Part shown: piece by piece, positions 3,001-30,646 of the stretch
Position numbering within the stretch: the first letter of the stretch is position 1
Layout of the letters: the number at the start of each line of letters is the position of its first letter
DNA from: an uncultured Roseburia sp.
GTDB taxonomy: Bacteria > Bacillota > Clostridia > Lachnospirales > Lachnospiraceae
Assembly: GCA_945787015.1 (NCBI GenBank)
Contig: CALZGM010000010.1
Coordinates: 1-64,000 of the forward strand
Direction of reading: 5' to 3'
DNA length: 64,000 nucleotides
The notes under the pieces: model-generated
Database searches by the model: none
What the model was told of the DNA's origin: nothing
Seen by the model: only the letters and a program-made list of their open reading frames with translations
Translations under genes and position numbers: made by a program

Positions 3001-4885
3001 GTATGGTTGATACTTCACTCTGCTCACGTCTATGCGCATAAGTAATGATATATTCTACAGCAATACCTCTTGAGATTGTCTGATCAAATAACACATACTG
3101 AGAACCTGTTGCAACATTTTCTGTTTCACGATAAAGGTTTTCTGTAATAATCATATCTGCAATTTCACTAAAACCTTTATCTTTTGCTTCTTCTAAGAAC
3201 TCAATTTTTGATTTGTTTTCTCCATTTATGAAAACAGCTCCAAACTCCTTTAAAAAACTAAATGATGGCAAATCTGAATCAGATGGTATTACATACACAT
3301 TTTTATTAATATAGTGGCTATCCTCATCATCATAGGCCTCTATATTTGATATAACCTCATCTGTAATCGGCAAATAATCAGTACTAAATTGGGATGCAGT
3401 TAATAGTTTCCCAATTTTATAGATGTTGGTACTAGTGCTAACATTTAACAGTCCTGAATCTACAATAACCGGCAAATTCAAATCCGAATTAACAACTCGC
3501 CAATAGATTTCGTATATAGTATCCTCAGTAATATCATTTATTTCCGAACCAGGACCAATCAAATCCCCATACTGTGTATATCCTGATTGCATTAAAATGG
3601 ATGAATTTGATAAGTATAATAAGTCAACTCCGTCCAAACTCATTGCACTAAGTTCCTTAGGAGTAACTACTTTTACATTAATTGCAATATCACAATCATC
3701 ATTAATTAATCCGCTTTGATTAAATACATACTGTTTCAAATGATTATTATTGGTAAAATTCGTCTTATAAAAGATTGTTTTTATATATAACGGTTGATCT
3801 AATCTTTCCGTATCAGATAACGCCAAGTTAAATCTTCCACCTGTACCAACATAATGATAACCTTCGTTCTCTCCTATGAAATTACCACCTGTAGCAGGTA
3901 CATATTCATGAGCCCAATCAGTAATTACCGCAGAATACTCCCCTTTTGGATTTCCTTCATCAGATAAAGCAAAAGAAACACTTTCTATTTCATAATATGC
4001 CTTTGTAACATCTGTCACATCCTCAATATAAGCAAATGTTACTGCTCCATACTGATTTTGCGACAATTCATCTATACTAAGTGTTGTTGTATCCACAGCC
4101 TCTAAAAATGATGTTGCTGCTACTTCGCTTGAGATATCGGTTGATTTATATACATATGCTAGTTCTTTAAAATCTTCAAAATTCTCTGCTGTCAATGCTG
4201 TATAAGATTTAATCGTATAATATACACCATCTGATGATAAATCACTATATTCTACCTTTTTAAATTTTATCGTATAATATTTATTTCGTTCTCCAGCCAC
4301 ATCATAGTATGCTATATTTTCATTATATTCTCCGCTAGCATCAGATACCGCCGTAAAATCAGCTGTAAATTCATATGATCCATCATTTTCTGCATCCGGT
4401 ACCATGACATATCCAGTCGTTCCTGCCGGTATCACTTCCTCTTGCTTTAGAAAAAGTTGATTCCATCCGTCTTGTTCAATATAAGACTCCTTATAAAATG
4501 GATTTGAATCGTCCGTTGCATCTATATACTGTAATGGACTTTCGTTACTGTTTCCAATAAATCCATTTGCTTCTAATCTCGTTTTTAAACTGTCCATGTA
4601 TGTGCGACGATCATCTGCCCCTGTATTTAAAGAAGCTAATTCATTTAAATATGATTCTCTTCCATCTACCAAGTATCCAAGTTTCGCAACACAATAATCA
4701 GGTACCACCTCTACTATTGTAAATGGTGTTGTATTGTCATGCGATGCAATAATCTTATCAAGCCCATTAAATGATTGCTGTGCATAAGCAGTATCTGGTT
4801 CCTTATGTATGATTGTAGTTAAACATACTGAAGTAGCCAAAAGAACAGCTCCCACACTTATCCATTTCCTCTTATTAAAGCTCAT
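92..4885 (-). CDS. Very large secreted protein, DUF5057-like, last gene of the pilus operon
   Basis: The product has 1597 residues. An N-terminal signal peptide (basic start, hydrophobic residues about 9-26, then a TAYAQ-like cleavage region) marks it as exported. The rest is a mosaic of predicted beta-rich stretches and at least two alpha/beta segments that open with a hydrophobic strand of the type IHILDIEP or IRVLQILPEG and continue with YEMIYLGL / YDMLVLGY strands. These recall the glutamine-amidotransferase-like segments of DUF5057 proteins; this assignment is from memory and moderate. There is no LPxTG signal and no C-terminal membrane helix. The start has a strong GGAGGAG site. It lies 13 bases after the preceding pilin-like gene, so an accessory pilus or surface role (tip adhesin or surface filament partner) is inferred from context only. 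Confidence 0.8.
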   Translation of the reverse strand: MSFNKRKWISVGAVLLATSVCLTTIIHKEPDTAYAQQSFNGLDKIIASHDNTTPFTIVEVVPDYCVAKLGYLVDGRESYLNELASLNTGADDRRTYMDSLKTRLEANGFIGNSNESPLQYIDATDDSNPFYKESYIEQDGWNQLFLKQEEVIPAGTTGYVMVPDAENDGSYEFTADFTAVSDASGEYNENIAYYDVAGERNKYYTIKFKKVEYSDLSSDGVYYTIKSYTALTAENFEDFKELAYVYKSTDISSEVAATSFLEAVDTTTLSIDELSQNQYGAVTFAYIEDVTDVTKAYYEIESVSFALSDEGNPKGEYSAVITDWAHEYVPATGGNFIGENEGYHYVGTGGRFNLALSDTERLDQPLYIKTIFYKTNFTNNNHLKQYVFNQSGLINDDCDIAINVKVVTPKELSAMSLDGVDLLYLSNSSILMQSGYTQYGDLIGPGSEINDITEDTIYEIYWRVVNSDLNLPVIVDSGLLNVSTSTNIYKIGKLLTASQFSTDYLPITDEVISNIEAYDDEDSHYINKNVYVIPSDSDLPSFSFLKEFGAVFINGENKSKIEFLEEAKDKGFSEIADMIITENLYRETENVATGSQYVLFDQTISRGIAVEYIITYAHRREQSEVSTIHILDIEPCATTPYNPNAENPNARDILLEKIKKSGYEFELVTMTSAEFISKVEDLSNYEMIYLGLSTDTMNVDVNSGRTIYNDSDMNGLVYTNIGDIQYNKQFTGVLDTDNNKNSYDNTKTGNCVRYSGNDLTNEKVEDIIEFAKSGSPVILDEGFLDAKGRVYDFEYNEDGSIKKDTQGKPINGYIDNCSKMYELIETIKDKNNVMTAKSINVSDIQKDLFLRYATLGKPILDMKTSEITNDQNYVTMSDNTIRVDFSIANYGAADVNATFDCVVYADYNADGRYSETTEKLVATEYKITNGNMIQEVKSKKDQNGKLVYYYELSAGALYHLEYTVADDYIGIIPFKLKVSQNRNQYRYDTDIAYFYHPNTSSENLKIRVLQILPEGYNTSSGREVFDMQADANKQNSSNIFYQKLQILKREFGIELIFTSLKGEEYLEAYNSKSINMDDYDMLVLGYADSYQMLDYTYKDIWGITRYYEPAELIGRYQDAYKGIQDFIKSGKSVLFTHDTTDYGSNIDTSWLYLPLRPAYADRWGLFFNPLLCPDVGLDRYGIYTSKLLAAGIDEIDKNDEETKYKVSDYPSLKEAISQDDITSKQLFEKIVEEANENNKDIAYKPNSNKTVLTNSVQGRSNYIIDKDGEKSLKSTKTQYSKENIRTTKVELLNEGQILLYPFNVLDNVRKNKGYLNVAKTHGQYFQIDMNEDADKDGESDITVWLTLADDENTSIYDITKRDARNNYYIYTKGNVTYSGVGDHYININGNEQEIMLYINTMIAAYSAGAHAPSVSIMQEADSDIELNTVYVGMDAVIDNGLISDGNYIDDVSKKDDFDYETIYYTVSDTNIIRGGTKEISVAYYQCLDFIPSQEQINANGYVKLQMTEGEVWALPLDLPTYTASGKLNATADTNHIVQNGGTYSIRLPYYVIGDKDRTKIVVAVTTNIYKNHQDKPTSTLIGYDSFYVQRISLFNLD

Positions 4886-23379: not shown

Positions 23380-26300
23380 TTATTTATTATCCGCATCTTT
23401 TGTACTTGATGTTTTTTCACCGATTACAAAAGAGTTCTTTACAACATCCGTATCGGTCAATTCTCTGGATTCATCTTTCTTTTCATTTGTGAAAATAACA
23501 CTTCCCGTCTGACCGGTAATATTATCTGCTTTAGATAACACATAACCTGTTCCAGCCCAGGCAGCATCTTTATATCCAATTGCAAAAGTTATATTTGCAT
23601 CTGCCGCTTTATATGCGCAGTTTGTATCTTCTGCAACTACTGATAATCCGGTCAAATCATAACGGATCGTATCTAATTCCTCTACCAGATAATGCCCTTT
23701 CCTAAGACCTGCTACTGTTGCTGTAAGTTCCGTTGTATCAGCATTTTTAAAGCGTAACGTACGATAGTATACTTTTTGGGTATCCGTGTTGGTAATCTTA
23801 AAGGTAAAGACTGGATCTCCCTGAATCTTCTTATAGCTGCCTTCCGGAATCGTCTTTGTGATTACGATTGTTCCATCAATCAAATCTGTTGTATATATAC
23901 CATAGTTTAAATTACTGTCAGCAGAATTTATCGCTTCCACCATATAATCCGCTTCTCCGGCAATATAAGTTACTCCATCCAAAGTAGAGTTACTATTACT
24001 TTCTTCTGTTGCCTCTCCTGCATCATATGTTACGTGCAAATAGTATTCCTTACTGTCATCGACGCTTACCGGGACAACATTTCCCATTTCTTCTACAGTA
24101 ATGATATCTGTCAAATCTGTATCTTCATACCATGTCAAAGTAAATCTGGAAGCATCCGTATTTTCAAATACCGTTCCATCTACCCCTGTAACAGCATCAC
24201 TATCAAATACTGCCTTTAACAACTCTTCGTCTGTTGAAATGGATTCTCCCAGGAAAATTGTGTTTTTCACATTGTTGACAACAAAATCCGCCTTTACATT
24301 CACTTTTGGCTGTGGTAATACTACCTTCGCCTCTGATGTGCTGATGCAGGAATCCGGTGATACATTGGTCGGAATGTTATTTCCTCCAATAAAGGTATCT
24401 TTTGCTACTATATGAAGCTCCGCACTCCATCCGCCTTCCGTTTTATGCTTAATTACCTGATCCTGCCATGTTATTGTGATTGTTCCATCTTCATTCTCCA
24501 CAATGGATACATTTTCACCATACAAAGCTTTTAAACGTTCTTCCTCACCTTCTGCCAATGCAAATCTTGTATCCAGAACATCTGTAACCTGCGCACCGGT
24601 AATAGCGGCATTCTCTACTAAGGTTTGCTGAAGATTTTGGAAGATTTTTTTCAATTCATCAGCTGTCGAAGCTGTATATGCCCATTTTTCCGAAGTAGCC
24701 AATCCCCCCAGCCACTTTGCTGTCGTATCAGTTAATCCAAATCCAACCGTAATAATGGTGTAATTATTTCCCGATGCTTTTAATTTGGCAATTTCTGTTT
24801 CTGTATCTTTCTTGTCAGTGTCACTACTTGGATTTCCATCCGAAAACAGGATAATATATTTTTCATTGGTATCATTTGCTTTACCAAATTCAGCGTCTAA
24901 TAATGTCAAAGCCTTTTGTGGCGAAGTGCCGCCATCTGCCAAAAGCGCATTGATGGTTTCCAATAGACCGAATGGGTTTTCAGATACGGTTGTCAGGCTC
25001 TGATTGACTGTTCCTGTTGTATCGTTACCTTGGTCTGTCTTATATCCGTAAAAGCTTGCAATACCGATTTTACTTTCCGGGGCATCAGCAGACATATTTG
25101 TCACAAAAGAAGATGCTGCCTCTTTTAATGCAGACAATCTGGAATCCCAGGTATATACATTATCATTAGCATAATCTCCGATACTCTTCCAGCCATTATC
25201 ATAATACTTCCACTGACCATCGATGTATTTCATAGGATATGGAGCATAACTACAACTTGGACCGCTGACTGGTGGTGTGATTTTATTTTTTGATTTAAAG
25301 TAATAAATCTGTTTCGTATTCAAGCTGTCCTTAACAGAGCTATATTTTCCAACTTTTATCATATCCGGTGATGTCCCGCCATTGATATTTTTATTCATGG
25401 AACCTGACAGGTCAAATACCATCATGACATCAATATTATCCGTTGTTGTACTTACTGCAGTTGCTTTAGAAGCTGCAGTTATCGTAATTGCATAGGTTCT
25501 GTCTTCCCAGTTCGTCAATGCTGCGGTCTTTGCATACTCTAAATTCTGATTCAGATATTCCTGTGAAGTCAGATTTACAATTTTTTGCTCCTTTAATTCG
25601 GTTGTTCCGTCTGCAAGATACACTTTAGCAACAATTTCCTCTGCTTCTGCTGTCACCTTTACTTTCCAGGTTTCCGTTGTTGCCGTATAGCCATCCGGAG
25701 CAACAGTCTCACTTAAGGTATAGGTGCCGACCTTGAGGTTACGGAAGGTTACCGTTCCATCTTCCTCAGATACAGCAGAAACGGCATTACCCGTCGCATC
25801 ATTTACAAGTTTAAAGGCTGCTCCTGCCAAAGGCTCATCAGACGTATTTGCTTTATTTAAAGTAAGATTTGTAGTTGTACTTGTCACGCTTACGATTTCG
25901 GCACTCGGTATTGTAAAATACATCTGACAGTTTGAAGCATTTCCTCCACGCTCCATATAAAGGATTGTAAGACGGTGCTCTGCATTTTTTGCTTCCTCTG
26001 TGGTAGCACCAATACCTTCTTCAAGTCCAAGTGCTTTCCATAAATTCACTTCTGCACTTAACGCATCATGGATACCACCCAGATCAATAACAACCTGTTT
26101 TCCATCCAAAATCACCCACAAGTCATCATCACCGGTAAAGCTGTAGTTCAAAGGTCCCACATAGTCTCCCAGTGTAAACAGGACATCATAGCGCATACCA
26201 AAGAAGTAATTATGACTGTTGCCATAACCATTGTCTGTAACATTAGAAGCCGCATCATCCAACGGGAAAAAATCACTGCCTGCAGATGCTACAACGCTCC

Positions 26301-27798
26301 CATTCAAATCCTTCACAGTAGACAACCGATAAGTGTCTCCTGTTCGTTCAAATGAAAGTGTATAATCATTTAAAATGGTTTTTCCGGCCTTATCCTCTAA
26401 TGAGAAAAAGCCCGGTTCATCCAGTGTAAACAAAACATCTGTAAAGTCATCTGACATGCCGGAAACAAGTCCTGTGATAAGACCGTCCTCTCCACTTGTA
26501 TAGGTATTTGCATTTTTCTGTATTCCATTTACAGTAATGTTTGCATCGTACTGATTTGCTTCATAATTTTGACTCTTTGTACCGGAAGTTAATCTCTTGC
26601 CTTCCATTCCGGAATTGCTGTCTGCATAGTTAGCTGCGGTATTGATACTCCATTCCGGTTTGTCTACCGCTTTGTACTCATAGCCCCATTTCCAATATTC
26701 TGAGTAATCACCATTTTTATTAAACCAACCGCTTTGTACCGGCTTAACCACATAATCAAAAAAGGTAGTATCTCCTTCAATTGTATTAGAAGCTGCCTCA
26801 TAGTAGACTTTTATCGTTGCATCTTTATACAGTTCTATCTCGTCAGTGTTGGAAAGAATTTTTTCTTCTCCATCCTCAATGATTGCAACTTTGTGAACGT
26901 TCCAGTTATTCGCCTTTTTATAATCATTGATTCGCGCACCTGACGCCAGTTTTCTGACATCATCTGCATATATTTTTTTACCCGTGGAGCTATTAATATG
27001 CTCGATTGTAACTGTTACCGTTTCTTTTCCTTCATTTACAATTACATATGTGGAAAAGTGTGGCGTATCAAATGCGACAGTACCGTCCTCAGATACCTCT
27101 GCCTGCATATTTTCTGCTTCATCGGTTGTCTCATCATAATGGAATACTGATACACTGTCTCCACATGTCACTTCAGGAAGTGTAATTTGTACCTTTACGG
27201 TCGCTCCCGGCTCTACCTCAACACCATCTGCAACAAATGAGATATCAAAAGCCAAAATACTGTTCATCTGAGTACCTTGTGATTCGACTGCCTCGGCAAT
27301 TGTACTCTGCATTTCTTCTGTCACTTCTACAGGATTAACCACTAACTCTGCATTTTCCGGTAAATCTTTTTCGTCCCCTAAAGTCACCATAACATTTACC
27401 AGATCACTCTTATAGTCAAAGCGAACACACGTATTCTGTATCTTTTCATCCTTCTCGGCTAATTCGTTTTTTTCTGATTTCTCGGTAGCTTCTGTTGTCT
27501 CAGTCACTTCCGTTGATTCGGTTGTTTCTGTTACCTCTGTAGCCTCGGTTGTTTCTATTACTTCTGTTACTTCTGTAGTCTCTGTCGTCTCAGTTGTTTC
27601 CGTTGCTTCTGTTACTTCTGTAGTCACAGTTGTTTCTGTTACTTCTGTAGTCTCAGTTACTGTACTTTCCGTAGACACAGTCAGATTAGCATCCAGATTT
27701 CCCAGTTCCGATGCATTTACTGAAATGATACTGCCTAGCAGAATCGTCATGCACAATAACAAAGCTATACTTTTCTTACCAAGTCTGCCAGATTTCAT
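23380..27798 (-). CDS. Giant secreted surface protein with fibro-slime-like, SpaA/Cna-B-like and VWA domains
   Basis: The protein has 1472 residues from ATG 27798, which has a perfect AGGAGG six bases upstream. In order: signal peptide (1-30); Thr/Glu-rich tract (about 46-107); beta region; a fibro-slime-like domain (about 395-640) with SFTGDDDLWVILDGK and an ILYMERGG strand; a SpaA/Cna-B-type repeat (about 640-725, GTYTLSETVAPDGY); a von Willebrand A domain (about 780-1080) with the MIDAS DLSGSM and SDGNPSS; and C-terminal pilin-like isopeptide domains (GHYLVEELDT). Such domains mediate adhesion and self-locking. Unlike typical relatives it has no LPxTG tail or C-terminal helix, so anchoring must be indirect or it is released. 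Confidence 0.9.
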   Translation of the reverse strand: MKSGRLGKKSIALLLCMTILLGSIISVNASELGNLDANLTVSTESTVTETTEVTETTVTTEVTEATETTETTETTEVTEVIETTEATEVTETTESTEVTETTEATEKSEKNELAEKDEKIQNTCVRFDYKSDLVNVMVTLGDEKDLPENAELVVNPVEVTEEMQSTIAEAVESQGTQMNSILAFDISFVADGVEVEPGATVKVQITLPEVTCGDSVSVFHYDETTDEAENMQAEVSEDGTVAFDTPHFSTYVIVNEGKETVTVTIEHINSSTGKKIYADDVRKLASGARINDYKKANNWNVHKVAIIEDGEEKILSNTDEIELYKDATIKVYYEAASNTIEGDTTFFDYVVKPVQSGWFNKNGDYSEYWKWGYEYKAVDKPEWSINTAANYADSNSGMEGKRLTSGTKSQNYEANQYDANITVNGIQKNANTYTSGEDGLITGLVSGMSDDFTDVLFTLDEPGFFSLEDKAGKTILNDYTLSFERTGDTYRLSTVKDLNGSVVASAGSDFFPLDDAASNVTDNGYGNSHNYFFGMRYDVLFTLGDYVGPLNYSFTGDDDLWVILDGKQVVIDLGGIHDALSAEVNLWKALGLEEGIGATTEEAKNAEHRLTILYMERGGNASNCQMYFTIPSAEIVSVTSTTTNLTLNKANTSDEPLAGAAFKLVNDATGNAVSAVSEEDGTVTFRNLKVGTYTLSETVAPDGYTATTETWKVKVTAEAEEIVAKVYLADGTTELKEQKIVNLTSQEYLNQNLEYAKTAALTNWEDRTYAITITAASKATAVSTTTDNIDVMMVFDLSGSMNKNINGGTSPDMIKVGKYSSVKDSLNTKQIYYFKSKNKITPPVSGPSCSYAPYPMKYIDGQWKYYDNGWKSIGDYANDNVYTWDSRLSALKEAASSFVTNMSADAPESKIGIASFYGYKTDQGNDTTGTVNQSLTTVSENPFGLLETINALLADGGTSPQKALTLLDAEFGKANDTNEKYIILFSDGNPSSDTDKKDTETEIAKLKASGNNYTIITVGFGLTDTTAKWLGGLATSEKWAYTASTADELKKIFQNLQQTLVENAAITGAQVTDVLDTRFALAEGEEERLKALYGENVSIVENEDGTITITWQDQVIKHKTEGGWSAELHIVAKDTFIGGNNIPTNVSPDSCISTSEAKVVLPQPKVNVKADFVVNNVKNTIFLGESISTDEELLKAVFDSDAVTGVDGTVFENTDASRFTLTWYEDTDLTDIITVEEMGNVVPVSVDDSKEYYLHVTYDAGEATEESNSNSTLDGVTYIAGEADYMVEAINSADSNLNYGIYTTDLIDGTIVITKTIPEGSYKKIQGDPVFTFKITNTDTQKVYYRTLRFKNADTTELTATVAGLRKGHYLVEELDTIRYDLTGLSVVAEDTNCAYKAADANITFAIGYKDAAWAGTGYVLSKADNITGQTGSVIFTNEKKDESRELTDTDVVKNSFVIGEKTSSTKDADNK
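27481..27663 (-). repeat. Thr/Glu-rich codon repeat in the giant surface protein
   Basis: About 61 codons encode degenerate tandem ETTEVTE / TEATETTE units with a three- to nine-codon period. The DNA repeats (ACTTCTGTAGTCTC-like on the plus strand) could expand or contract in steps of three without a frameshift. The encoded stretch is probably an extended stalk, perhaps glycosylated on Thr. Confidence 0.75.
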
Positions 27799-27886
27799 AT
27801 AAATCCTCCTTACACGTACCTGCCCTCTTACCTCTATCTTCAATTACAAGGCATACATTTCCCCTTATATCTTAATTTTCCTTATT

Positions 27887-27920: not shown

Positions 27921-27970
27921 AGTATGATTTTAAAGCACAAAAAGTTCTTTTTTATGTATATGATTCGGAA

Positions 27971-28141
27971 TTGGGTATAGAGAGCTGATATAAAGAGCTA
28001 ATACCCAAAAACAAGTCAATTTTTCCGAAAAAAGTAGATTTTTTCAAAAATGTTGGGTATTAGAAAGGCTAATTGAAATCTGCTACCCAAAACCAGGTGC
28101 TAATTGGGCATTGGTACAAATTTCGCTTTGTGTATACCCAA
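27971..28141. repeat. Left array of three 38-bp palindromic units
   Basis: Units at 27971-28008, 28053-28090 and 28104-28141, each exactly 38 bp, starting TTGGG(T/C)A and ending (A/C)TACCCAA. The third is almost a full hairpin (arms TTGGGCAT.GGTACAAA and TTTGTG.ATACCCAA around TTCG). Gaps are 44 and 13 bp. This fills most of the gene-free stretch 27799-28208, the rest being promoter P2 and the 5' leader of the giant protein. Confidence 0.8.
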
Positions 28142-28208
28142 CGTTTCCTGTTATGTATACCAAAGCACCATAGATATAAAAATCCTGTTACGTATACTAA
28201 TGCATTTC

Positions 28209-28997
28209 TTAGATCACTACGTCAAAGTAATGCTCCAAAATTTCTTCGACAGTTTCAATTGATAATGGATTTTCTTTTGTTTCATAGGTAGTAATCAATT
28301 GAACAGATGGAATGATTCCATGCGTACTATAATCGTACAATTTTTTGCAAGTTTTTTTCACATAGGCCTTGTCATCCATCTTTCCAAAATGTTCCCAATA
28401 ATACACTTTCCCTGTTTTCGGATGTCGAATCGTAAAATCCGGATAAACAATTTGGTTTCCCAAATACAATTCACACTCATAGCGGAATGGGATTTTATTT
28501 TTGAAAAGAAACATATCTATCAGTGCCTCTGATTTTGAACGTACAATATTACCGGAGCAGGCTTTTATTGTTAATTGTTCAGGATATTCTTTACTTTGAG
28601 TAAAAGGGGAATTTTGCCAATCGAGTAGTTCCCTAGAAATGGGTTTAAAAAATGAAGAAAGTAATTTTTGATATTCAGAAGGTTCTGTAAGTAACTGTTC
28701 TGCTTGTCCAAAATCACTTTTTTGAAATTTTAGAATAGAATTAATTGCTTTTCTTTCCTGCTTTAAATCATCTTCTAAAAGTGTCAGATATTTTTTTACC
28801 GCTAATTGTTCTGCAAGTTGGCGATTCTTTTTAGGAATATAGCTGTTTGTTTTTCCATCACTTCGATACCACTTGTAGTATCCACCGTTTTTTGCACAAA
28901 TCAGTTTTCCCTCAGGGAATGTCTTAAGCCGTTTTTCTAATAGGTCTATCTTTCTTTCCAACTCTTGCTTTTCACGTTGTAGTTTATCATGCCGCAT
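28209..28997 (-). CDS. PD-(D/E)xK nuclease-like protein of a palindrome-flanked element
   Basis: The protein has 262 residues. An N-terminal coiled coil (about 5-25) is followed by a small beta unit (GKLICAKNGGYYKWYRSDGK) and a helical middle. The C-terminal half looks like a PD-(D/E)xK fold: RSKSEALI with Glu157, VYPDF with Asp187, and YYWEHFG with Glu202, where His203 takes the place of the usual Lys. Such spacing is seen in TnsA-, Vsr- and restriction-type nucleases. From memory, close relatives recur in Lachnospiraceae, often several per genome, which would fit a mobile gene; this was not checked. The start has a perfect AGGAGGTG site. Its flanks are the mirrored palindromic arrays. The function is unknown. 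Confidence 0.8.
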   Translation of the reverse strand: MRHDKLQREKQELERKIDLLEKRLKTFPEGKLICAKNGGYYKWYRSDGKTNSYIPKKNRQLAEQLAVKKYLTLLEDDLKQERKAINSILKFQKSDFGQAEQLLTEPSEYQKLLSSFFKPISRELLDWQNSPFTQSKEYPEQLTIKACSGNIVRSKSEALIDMFLFKNKIPFRYECELYLGNQIVYPDFTIRHPKTGKVYYWEHFGKMDDKAYVKKTCKKLYDYSTHGIIPSVQLITTYETKENPLSIETVEEILEHYFDVVI

Positions 28998-29152
28998 TCT
29001 TTTTTCACCTCCTTTTTATTCTCTTATTAAAGCATAAAATAGTTCTCCGGTAAAGCTAGAAGTTAATACTTTTTAGTAAACTACATGTTTTATTTGAGTA
29101 TAAACCAATTGCTGATGTGTCCACACTATAGGATACATTATAACTGATGCGA

Positions 29153-29321
29153 TTGGGTATACAGAGTTCAAAAAATGTCTATTACCAAAAAGAGGCATCG
29201 TTTTGGGTAATAGAATAGATTTTGCTATCCTATACCCAGCAAATTCAAAAAATCACCATATTTTCATACAAAATGAAGTTTTTTTGGGTATTGAAGGAAA
29301 AATCTTGCTCTCTATACCCAT
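29153..29321. repeat. Right array of three 36-38 bp palindromic units
   Basis: Units at 29153-29190, 29203-29239 and 29284-29321, with gaps of 12 and 44 bp. Each begins TTGGGTA and ends TACC(C)A. Reverse-complemented, they match the left array in order. They occupy the gene-free stretch 28998-29437 together with the ribosome site of the nuclease gene, a terminator hairpin and a REP-like palindrome. Confidence 0.75.
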
Positions 29322-29360
29322 CCTACGTTTGTATACATTCAAAAACTTTCTATTATCATA

Positions 29361-29396: not shown

Positions 29397-29402
29397 TTCA
29401 TG

Positions 29403-29437
29403 ATAATAGAAAGTTCGCAGAGCGTACTTTCTATTAT
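29403..29437. repeat. REP-like palindrome, copy 1
   Basis: Palindrome with arms ATAATAGAAAGT (29403-29414) and ACTTTCTATTAT (29426-29437) around CGC-AGA-GCG. It abuts the stop codon of the SARP gene. A nearly identical copy in opposite orientation is at 33946-33979, just after the stop of the phosphopantetheinyl transferase gene. Confidence 0.8.
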
Positions 29438-30646
29438 TTACTCTATCCATTTGTTCTCCATACTAACCGGTTCCAAATTCCCTTCTACAGGGAAAAATTT
29501 GCTTTTCGGATTATCTTTTTGATAAGAAGCAACAATCCGCTCCAGAACCATCTTACTGCATTCTGTATCGCAGGAAGGCAATAATACAATGAACTGGGAA
29601 TCGCTGTACTTGGCAACTACATCTCCTATTCGAAGCTGTTCGCTTAAGAGCTTTGCCAGACGATTCATCATCTTTTCCATGTAAAATGTTTCCAGCTCCT
29701 GTGTCAGTTCTTTTTCTTTTTGATTCTTAACCGTCAAAAGGAGCACATATTCTGTCTGATTAGCTCTTTCACTCTTTCTGGCCTCTAATCTGTAGATTTC
29801 TTTAAAGACCGGATAACCGCAGAAAAAAGCGCCCTGCGGATTCTCCTCCGTCATATCACGGCAAACATCCGACATTTCTTCCGCTTCAATTCCCTTTTTT
29901 ACCTTCAAAAGTTCGCCATAAATAGAAGACAATTGTTCGGAATTGCGGATACCCAATTCATCATGCAGAATTTGTTTTGCTTTCTCATAGGATTCCATTG
30001 CAAGTTGAATCTTATTTTGCTTCATCCTTGCCAAAACCAGATAATAATACAATTCTTCATCTGCCCGGTCAATAGAAAGTGCTTCAATGCAGCGTTCTTC
30101 CAAGTTTTCAAACCGACCGGTCAGCACATACAATTCTGCCAATCCTTTTACACATGACAAAAACATAGAATGATAATAGGCGCTTATCGTAATCATCCAC
30201 GGAAGTTCAGCTTCCTTCATCATAAAATCGCCTTTGTACAAGTCTACTGCCTGCTCATAATAAAGAATTGCTTTTTCCGTCGTATTTTCTTCCTTCTTTG
30301 CTGCAAGATAGCATTTTTCAAACTTTTCTGCGTCAATTTCAACAGGAATGTTCGTATTCCAGCTGTATGCGCCCCTGTTTGTCAGAATAAACTCCTCATC
30401 CCCCAGATTTTTTTTTAATGTTGTACGTAAGCGGTACATTAGGTTTTTCAATGCTCCCGTTGGATTATCCACCTCATCTTCCTGCCAGATTGCAGTAGCA
30501 ATTGCATCCGAAGTCAGTGGTTTTGTGCGGTTAAGCAGTAAGAACACCAGCAGCTTTGTCAGCATTGCAGAGCGAATACTGTCATCGTCCAGTCTGCCAT
30601 ATTCATTTGTAATCTGAAATTTACCAAGCACGTTTACCTTTATCAT
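29438..30646 (-). CDS. SARP/BTAD-type transcription regulator with degenerate GGDEF-like C-terminal domain
   Basis: The protein has 402 residues from ATG 30646, which has AGGGGA five bases upstream. Residues about 1-100 form an OmpR-type winged helix, 101-250 a bacterial transcriptional activation (BTAD) TPR-like domain (YYLVLARMKQNKIQLAMESYE), the two-domain core of SARP activators. Residues about 278-402 resemble a GGDEF domain: RIGDVVAKYSDSQFIVLLP aligns with the R.GD..aRyGGDEF.vlLP consensus, but the signature is SDSQF, so cyclase activity is not expected; nucleotide or protein sensing is possible. It is the only SARP-type gene in the window, and the three promoters with SARP-like direct repeats lie around it. 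Confidence 0.88.
   Translation of the reverse strand: MIKVNVLGKFQITNEYGRLDDDSIRSAMLTKLLVFLLLNRTKPLTSDAIATAIWQEDEVDNPTGALKNLMYRLRTTLKKNLGDEEFILTNRGAYSWNTNIPVEIDAEKFEKCYLAAKKEENTTEKAILYYEQAVDLYKGDFMMKEAELPWMITISAYYHSMFLSCVKGLAELYVLTGRFENLEERCIEALSIDRADEELYYYLVLARMKQNKIQLAMESYEKAKQILHDELGIRNSEQLSSIYGELLKVKKGIEAEEMSDVCRDMTEENPQGAFFCGYPVFKEIYRLEARKSERANQTEYVLLLTVKNQKEKELTQELETFYMEKMMNRLAKLLSEQLRIGDVVAKYSDSQFIVLLPSCDTECSKMVLERIVASYQKDNPKSKFFPVEGNLEPVSMENKWIE

Follow-up and report, generated by a model that had tools for sequence, protein, structure and literature searches.

A predicted nuclease family of Lachnospiraceae and its helically phased palindromic arrays

Our analysis of a 64,000-nucleotide stretch of DNA from an uncultured Roseburia sp. 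(the window) reveals a gene for a predicted nuclease flanked by arrays of palindromic units. Comparison with homologues reveals that such arrays accompany the gene family, that their units are spaced in whole helical turns, that their arm letters follow particular residues of the protein, and that matching solo arrays occur elsewhere in the chromosome. Arms and gene are both constrained, and loci are present in some genomes and absent from others. The explanation that we prefer, and to which we give an even chance of being right, is a two-part system in which a nuclease has its own dispersed cognate arrays, similar to REPIN/RAYT but working on phased duplex DNA. A fuller version, which we put at slightly below an even chance, is that a sequence-specific double-strand nuclease with a readable code seeds and maintains phased cognate arrays genome-wide in Lachnospiraceae, that its specificity drifts between species together with the whole array population, and that the enzyme and its repeats form an undescribed system.

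Bacterial genes known to keep matching palindromes in the chromosome are few, and this explanation, if correct, would extend them to a second class of enzyme. A nearly legible code from hairpin residues to bases can already be read from naturally occurring homologues, and DNA recognition by a small hairpin nuclease is therefore directly testable. Among the papers listed in searches of the open-access literature, none concerns this nuclease family; the results suggest that an enzyme and scattered repeats act as partners in a way not yet described, a claim of novelty that extends to the open-access papers listed.

The window locus and its protein family

The features of the window locus are as follows (palindromic units are given without strand):

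28209..28997, minus strand: nuclease-like gene (P0001), 262 aa (open reading frame; C-terminal match to PADLOC PDC-S68; alignment of 78 sequences)
28866..28907, minus strand: codons 31–44 (KLICAKNGGYYKWY), proposed DNA-reading β-hairpin (residue/arm association and hold-out; fold suggested by the sequence pattern)
28527..28541, minus strand: codons 153–157, RSKSE, first nuclease motif (invariant in 78 homologues; predicted catalytic role)
28389..28442, minus strand: codons 186–203, PDF...WEH nuclease motif (P186, D187, W201, E202, and H203 invariant in 78 homologues; predicted catalytic role)
27971..28008: left array unit 1, 38 bp
28053..28090: left array unit 2, 38 bp
28104..28141: left array unit 3, 38 bp
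29153..29189: right array unit 1, 37 bp, second arm imperfect
29203..29239: right array unit 2, 37 bp
29284..29321: right array unit 3, 38 bp

The units are inverted repeats of 37–38 bp with arms TTGGGTAT/ATACCCAA, three on each side of the gene, separated by gaps of 44 and 13 bp on the left and 13 and 44 bp on the right. An earlier note on this DNA had described three 38-bp units per side and a right-hand gap of 12 bp; the six units stand, and the right-hand gap is 13 bp because two of the right-hand units are 37 bp long. The six-unit array scores 20 in a de novo array finder, a value equalled in 0/400 first-order Markov resamples of the flanks (maximum 6), and a consensus with a 22-bp gap, allowing at most 3 mismatches, finds 4 sites in the window versus 0.38 expected, a number reached in 0/100 shuffles. 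The left and right flanks have 70% inverted homology over 124 bp (27972–28093 versus 29320–29200), which takes in, on either side, the outer two units and the 44 bp that separate them. The same note had the flanks as inverted homologues past the unit ends; the homology stops at the outermost unit.

Two other features lie near the locus. Adjoining the left array is a long protein of surface type whose N-terminal repeat is rich in TTE/VTE (23380–27843), and at 29400–29440 there is a different palindromic repeat (ATAATAGAAAGTTCGCAGAGCGTACTTTCTATTAT type), with at least 9 further copies in the genome (10 of 89 candidates scored) and copies also in related genomes of the genus.

Searches of the window protein against Pfam, NCBIfam, and PHROGs gave nothing above cut-off (PHROGs matches at E 0.07 or worse), and a PDB profile search gave decarboxylase matches only, at E 0.2 or worse; no curated family exists for the protein. 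Its C-terminal part matches PADLOC PDC-S68 (E 2.7e-27), and residues R153, S154, K155, S156, E157, P186, D187, W201, E202, and H203 are invariant in 78 aligned homologues. Compared with the PD-(D/E)XK core pattern (E...PD...(D/E)xK), SE, PD, and WEH are invariant, with the canonical lysine away from its usual place. Based on the PDC-S68 match and the invariant residues, we predict that the C-terminal domain is PD-(D/E)XK-like and catalytic. Pfam searches with 26 members gave 24 weak matches, in which no family recurs in more than one member except DegS (3/26) and no Y1/HuH transposase family appears; searches with six N-terminal fragments gave weak Ribosomal_L33 matches in two.

The gene is present in 30/62 genomes examined, about half, of one gut genus, with up to 7 matches per genome. 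A scan of 398 genomes of the phylum found matches in 13, of which 5, all in the window's bacterial family and including its own genome, have near full-length copies, and 8 lack the N-terminal part, 6 of them in open frames of more than 400 aa. A scan of genome contigs confirmed at least 564 relatives, and the best 80, from records titled Lachnospiraceae or other Clostridia, were analysed further. Two of these, L093 and L094, lie in 10,768 bases that are 100% identical and in opposite orientation on one metagenome contig, probably an assembly duplication.

Several nuclease loci are orthologous, occupying the same place in related species, and the gene has a dN/dS of 0.05–0.24 in 7 orthologous pairs, indicating purifying selection. 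A set of 2.9 million viral contigs contains 9 distant relatives. Among 50,697 phage records there are 2, one being a faecal record of 4.2 kb with 91% of the protein covered at 27% identity, and among 72,556 plasmid records there are 7, matching the C-terminal part only. We accordingly rejected a phage origin, given the few and distant relatives in viral contigs and phage records, and a plasmid origin, given the partial matches in 7/72,556 records.

Array spacing and the residue-to-base association

An array (score of at least 9 within 700 bp of the gene) was called beside 46/80 homologues (one counted twice; best 80 of at least 564), versus 1/137 control stretches taken from a distance of 2.5 kb or more and 0/80 shuffles; for the other 34/80 no array was called. 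Of 14 further loci, 9 scored at least 9, and in other genera of the window's bacterial family a clear array is present at 6/9 loci. The largest array has up to 16 units, both sides of its gene together (L211). The earlier suggestions that the units accompany the gene and act like binding sites hold, the second as a prediction. At L101, a second array lies more than 1 kb upstream of the gene (3425–3907) and matches arrays located downstream of the gene in the related loci L107 and L102.

The distances between unit centres fall into discrete classes: 41–42, 51–53, 61–62, 69–73, 80–83, 92–94, 113, and 122 bp, with outliers at 48, 50, and 66 bp. Using 74 per-locus distances from 45/79 loci (L094 dropped), the best-fitting period is 10.1 bp over 4–12 turns (R 0.82), a value reached in 0/5000 uniform nulls (null maximum 0.38). 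With seven orthologous or doubtful loci dropped, the remaining 38 loci give R 0.79 (0/5000 nulls; maximum 0.43). Such quantised spacing is what one would expect if binding took place along a single face of the helix, and it argues for duplex DNA. Within orthologous arrays, the arms change less than the remainder: in four aligned pairs of gene-side arrays (L102 occurs in two pairs; L069/L089 and L124/L105, whose arrays lacked an alignment, were left out), arms differ at 10/227 positions and the rest at 131/927 (Fisher p 2e-5). A CRISPR array was considered and rejected, since only the 7–8 bp arms in inverted pairs are kept, with variable sequence in the remainder of each unit and in the gaps.

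The arms differ between homologues, and their differences are associated with residues of the proposed hairpin. Consensus arms of 42 arrays were aligned by their GG core, with protein data unused, and 2056 residue–position pairs were ranked (z values from 60 permutations, relatedness ignored). Residue 40/arm position 2 ranks first (z 11.4) and residue 35/position 6 second (z 9.2); residue 32/position 7 ranks fourth, 44/6 sixth, 40/1 seventh, and 37/4 eighth, and the third and fifth ranks belong to C-terminal residues 171 and 228. Specifically, R40 is associated with G at arm position 2 (12/13), Y40 with T (13/14), H40 with T (7/8), and C or T at residue 40 with C (3/3), while A35 is associated with T at position 6 (14/14), V35 with A at position 5 (3/3), and N37 with G at position 4 (39/39). 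The order of residues and bases is colinear, as if a strand ran along the groove. The window protein, itself part of the training set, has A35, N37, and Y40, in agreement with its own TTGGGTAT. The orthologues L069 and L089, with genes 82% alike, syntenic flanks, and the same four-unit layout, carry R versus H at residue 40 and have array consensus GGGGCAT versus TGGGCAT, respectively, the L069 arms being imperfect (4 mismatches).

The hold-out set comprised 59 loci that had played no part in training; a relaxed GG-type array allowed 16 of them to be scored, and 43 were unscorable. With duplicates removed, position 2 was predicted correctly in 12/13 and position 6 in 9/11, as compared with 14/15 and 10/13 before L269 (equal to training locus L052) and L096 (equal to hold-out locus L025) were dropped; without L012, L030, and L278 as well, which are 83–84% alike to a training protein, the values are 9/10 and 6/8. 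The misses at position 6 arise because residue 35 is S, and L277, scored as a miss, reads G in a wider search. On a tree from which the hairpin was excluded, arm position 2 undergoes at least 14 changes. Independent pairs on supported branches go in the expected direction in 3/3 and about 3.6/5 cases, none in the opposite direction, with sign tests (p 0.25 and 0.125) short of significance because there are only 3 and 5 independent pairs. Arm distance correlates with N-terminal distance once C-terminal distance is accounted for (partial r 0.23; 8/2000), and to a smaller extent in the reverse comparison (0.118; 168/2000). A code by which the N-terminal hairpin would recognise the arms, so that arms follow the hairpin from homologue to homologue, is well supported, and the predicted phased recognition of arms by the hairpin is, from co-variation and spacing, the best supported step of the mechanism set out below.

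These results leave a very small probability that the units act as hairpins in transcribed RNA. That the arms are inverted repeats is as such an RNA element would have it, but the spacing tracks the DNA helix, arrays lie on either side of the gene, and the arm letters track residues of the protein.

Solo arrays and the gain and loss of loci

Exact TTGGGTAT N18–26 ATACCCAA pairs are present at 7 places in the window genome, one in the window and six on five other contigs, bearing out the earlier expectation of further unit copies elsewhere; 39 other genomes of the genus have 0. Around four of these places (contigs C5, C43, C53, and C57) arrays of 3, 3, 2, and 3 units were called, with no nuclease seen adjoining and with spacing mostly as in the window. 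Other nuclease copies in the window genome have their own arrays with different arms (for example TTAGGCAT at C16 and GGGGCAT at C43), and TAGGCAT units occur in their own genome beside their gene only, with no solo copy. Other repeats were seen near the solo arrays. Upstream of one TTGGGTAT solo array lies another array, diverged and with arms resembling TTGGGCAT/ACGCCCA, seen by eye (L018, 2170–2415). On C57 (330–600; L021) and at the end of C53 (L020), the solo arrays adjoin a different repeat, about 270 bp in length and bounded by inverted ends; it is found in short form at C43 also and looks like a separate miniature element.

A second arm type, GGGACAT, was counted in nine genomes: 19 pairs in G027 (the Roseburia faecis M72 genome; locus L029 equals L117), 10 in G018, 2 in G061, 1 in G005, and 0 in the window genome, G021, G017, G012, and G034. 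A reversed-pattern control gave 1 in G018 and 0 in the other eight. Both G027 and G018 carry a GGGACAT-type nuclease; the nucleases found in G061 are three, with arms TGGGCGC, TAGTCCG, and TGGGCGA, despite its 2 GGGACAT units, and the one found in G005 has arms CTTGACC, despite its one unit. In both genomes, the solo arrays are spaced like the array beside the gene: G027 has six places with 3–7 units in steps of 51 bp, and G018 has two places with four units each in 71-52-71 steps. The two G018 arrays (L245 and L248) are 86% alike over the 236-bp array only, with unrelated flanks, and L248 also has TGGGCG-arm units like those of the other G018 nuclease (L043 arms), seen by eye. Across 33 units at eight G027 places, arms agree at 91%, a value inflated because arms served for detection, and other positions agree at 33% versus 27% by composition; most of the dispersed G027 arrays are therefore not recent copies.

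The strongest rival explanation, which we nevertheless consider unlikely, is an anti-parasite nuclease that cuts iteron-like arrays on invaders, with the host arrays as decoy or brake. The C-terminal domain is common to the PADLOC defence candidate PDC-S68, is present in long reading frames of other lineages and in plasmid proteins (5/7 records annotated AAA family ATPase), and specificity changes fast; moreover, PMC8263062 describes a phage nuclease, Odn, that cuts only with three semi-palindromic iterons. The location of the arrays argues the other way. The cognate arrays sit in the host chromosome, and viral contigs contain no convincing arrays of the GGGACAT pattern, which was found in 18 stretches with irregular or overlapping spacing, 16 of them at 50–72% G+C. 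Pairs of TTGGGTAT are present in at least 80 viral stretches, with a second, looser unit 42 to 180 bp off in 10 of 80.

Gain and loss were examined at the gap that separates an ABC-F gene from hpf, where empty sites, which the earlier note had asked for, were found. In G018 (L099) and G027 (L117) this gap is occupied by a nuclease with arrays, oppositely oriented in the two genomes and differing in their arms; the gap is empty (about 110 bp) in G061, which is 93% identical to G018 over the query, and in G005. Of 30 hpf loci, 11 have ABC-F upstream and no nuclease match between; most of the others could not be judged. At other loci, the flanks of L068 and L077 are 93–95% alike with the gene inverted and 74% alike, L038 carries an array of about 670 bp where L037 is without, the solo array L247 is absent from G032, and the window-locus match in G021 stops at a contig end. 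No target-site duplication is evident at the G018 or G027 junctions or at L037/L038; flanks have diverged.

The filled and empty gap, the mirror-image, two-sided arrays of the window, and the up to 7 matches in one genome would all suit an autonomous transposon with the arrays as its terminal ends and the nuclease as a TnsA-like transposase, alone or with a helper. We judge this improbable. Just 13 of 45 called arrays are two-sided (10 are upstream only and 22 downstream only), the two arrays of L099 are direct, not inverted, copies (96% alike), neither a clear target duplication nor fixed ends were seen, and orthologous loci keep their place in related species. The proposal of long terminal inverted repeats bounding a transposon, from which the earlier note set out, is not borne out on these grounds. 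The same note named two outcomes that would speak against it, one locus everywhere without empty sites or flanks unlinked to the gene; we found neither, because empty sites exist and arrays follow the gene as a kind even though their letters change.

By crude gene calls, neighbours of nuclease loci are convergent in 14 cases, divergent in 6, and tandem in 48 (68 placed of 79), those of solo arrays 5, 3, and 6 (14 placed of 17), and those of background gaps 28, 24, and 224 of 276. This lean towards convergent gaps (14/68 and 5/14 versus 28/276), the patchy presence in 30/62 genomes, and the broken state of two of the six loci encoding relatives in the window genome (one with an internal stop; one split in two with the middle missing) all count against a domesticated DNA-binding protein, with arrays as silencer, operator, or chromosome-organising sites and nuclease activity secondary. 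Helical phasing and the constraint on arms and on gene speak for such a protein, which we, too, rate as improbable.

Proposed mechanism and comparison with known systems

In the mechanism that we propose for a nuclease with dispersed cognate arrays, the N-terminal β-hairpin would read a half-site of 7–8 bp, mostly of the NNGGGYAT type, the middle helical part would probably pair two protein copies, and the C-terminal PD-(D/E)XK-like domain would cut DNA. The arrays consist of inverted half-site pairs about 35–40 bp in length, set whole helical turns from one another, an arrangement in which many dimers could line up along a single face of the duplex. An array adjoins the gene, and same-arm and mostly same-spacing arrays lie at other places in the genomes examined for them. 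The bound nuclease may nick or cut at array edges, and repair of the break may copy, expand, and spread the arrays, much as TnpA-REP (RAYT) is thought to act on REPs; the gene itself would be mostly inherited vertically. Binding and dimerisation are predicted, and we infer cutting and array spread from motif conservation, purifying selection, and the matching solo arrays.

The hairpin pattern suggests a β-sheet reader of the kind present in the arm-binding domain of Tn916/lambda integrase and in AP2-type proteins, in which a β-sheet reads a short site in the major groove, but six N-terminal fragments gave no Pfam match to a domain of that kind. In Tn7, TnsA is a PD-(D/E)XK nuclease, and the transposon ends are multi-site, each holding several binding sites; unlike Tn7-type ends, the present loci show no fixed ends, and the likeness to TnsA is by description. 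With PADLOC PDC-S68 the family shares its C-terminal domain (residues 107–258); the PDC-S68 models have 1202–1273 positions, and the present protein is a compact form without the long N-terminal part and with the hairpin instead. Odn, the origin-directed nuclease of phage ICP1, is described in PMC8263062 as phage-borne, with a T5orf172 domain of the GIY-YIG superfamily, attacking the origin of another element, and needing three semi-palindromic repeats for cutting. The present system is like Odn in combining a predicted nuclease with a set of palindromic repeats and unlike it in being neither GIY-YIG nor phage-borne.

A close comparison is with REPIN/RAYT, in which palindromes also flank the RAYT gene. 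Like REPIN/RAYT, the present system has a chromosomal enzyme gene with matching palindromes both beside the gene and dispersed, the TAGGCAT units being the exception. According to PMC8266576 and PMC3116915, enzyme and palindrome co-evolve in REPIN/RAYT and the palindromes are dispersed in the chromosome; according to PMC8266576, TnpA-REP proteins are HuH enzymes that process single-stranded REP. The present family, by contrast, is PD-(D/E)XK-like with sites phased on the helix, and this phasing argues for duplex DNA. The present system thus resembles REPIN/RAYT in its working, with a PD-(D/E)XK-like protein in place of the Y1 HuH enzyme by which REPIN/RAYT is defined.
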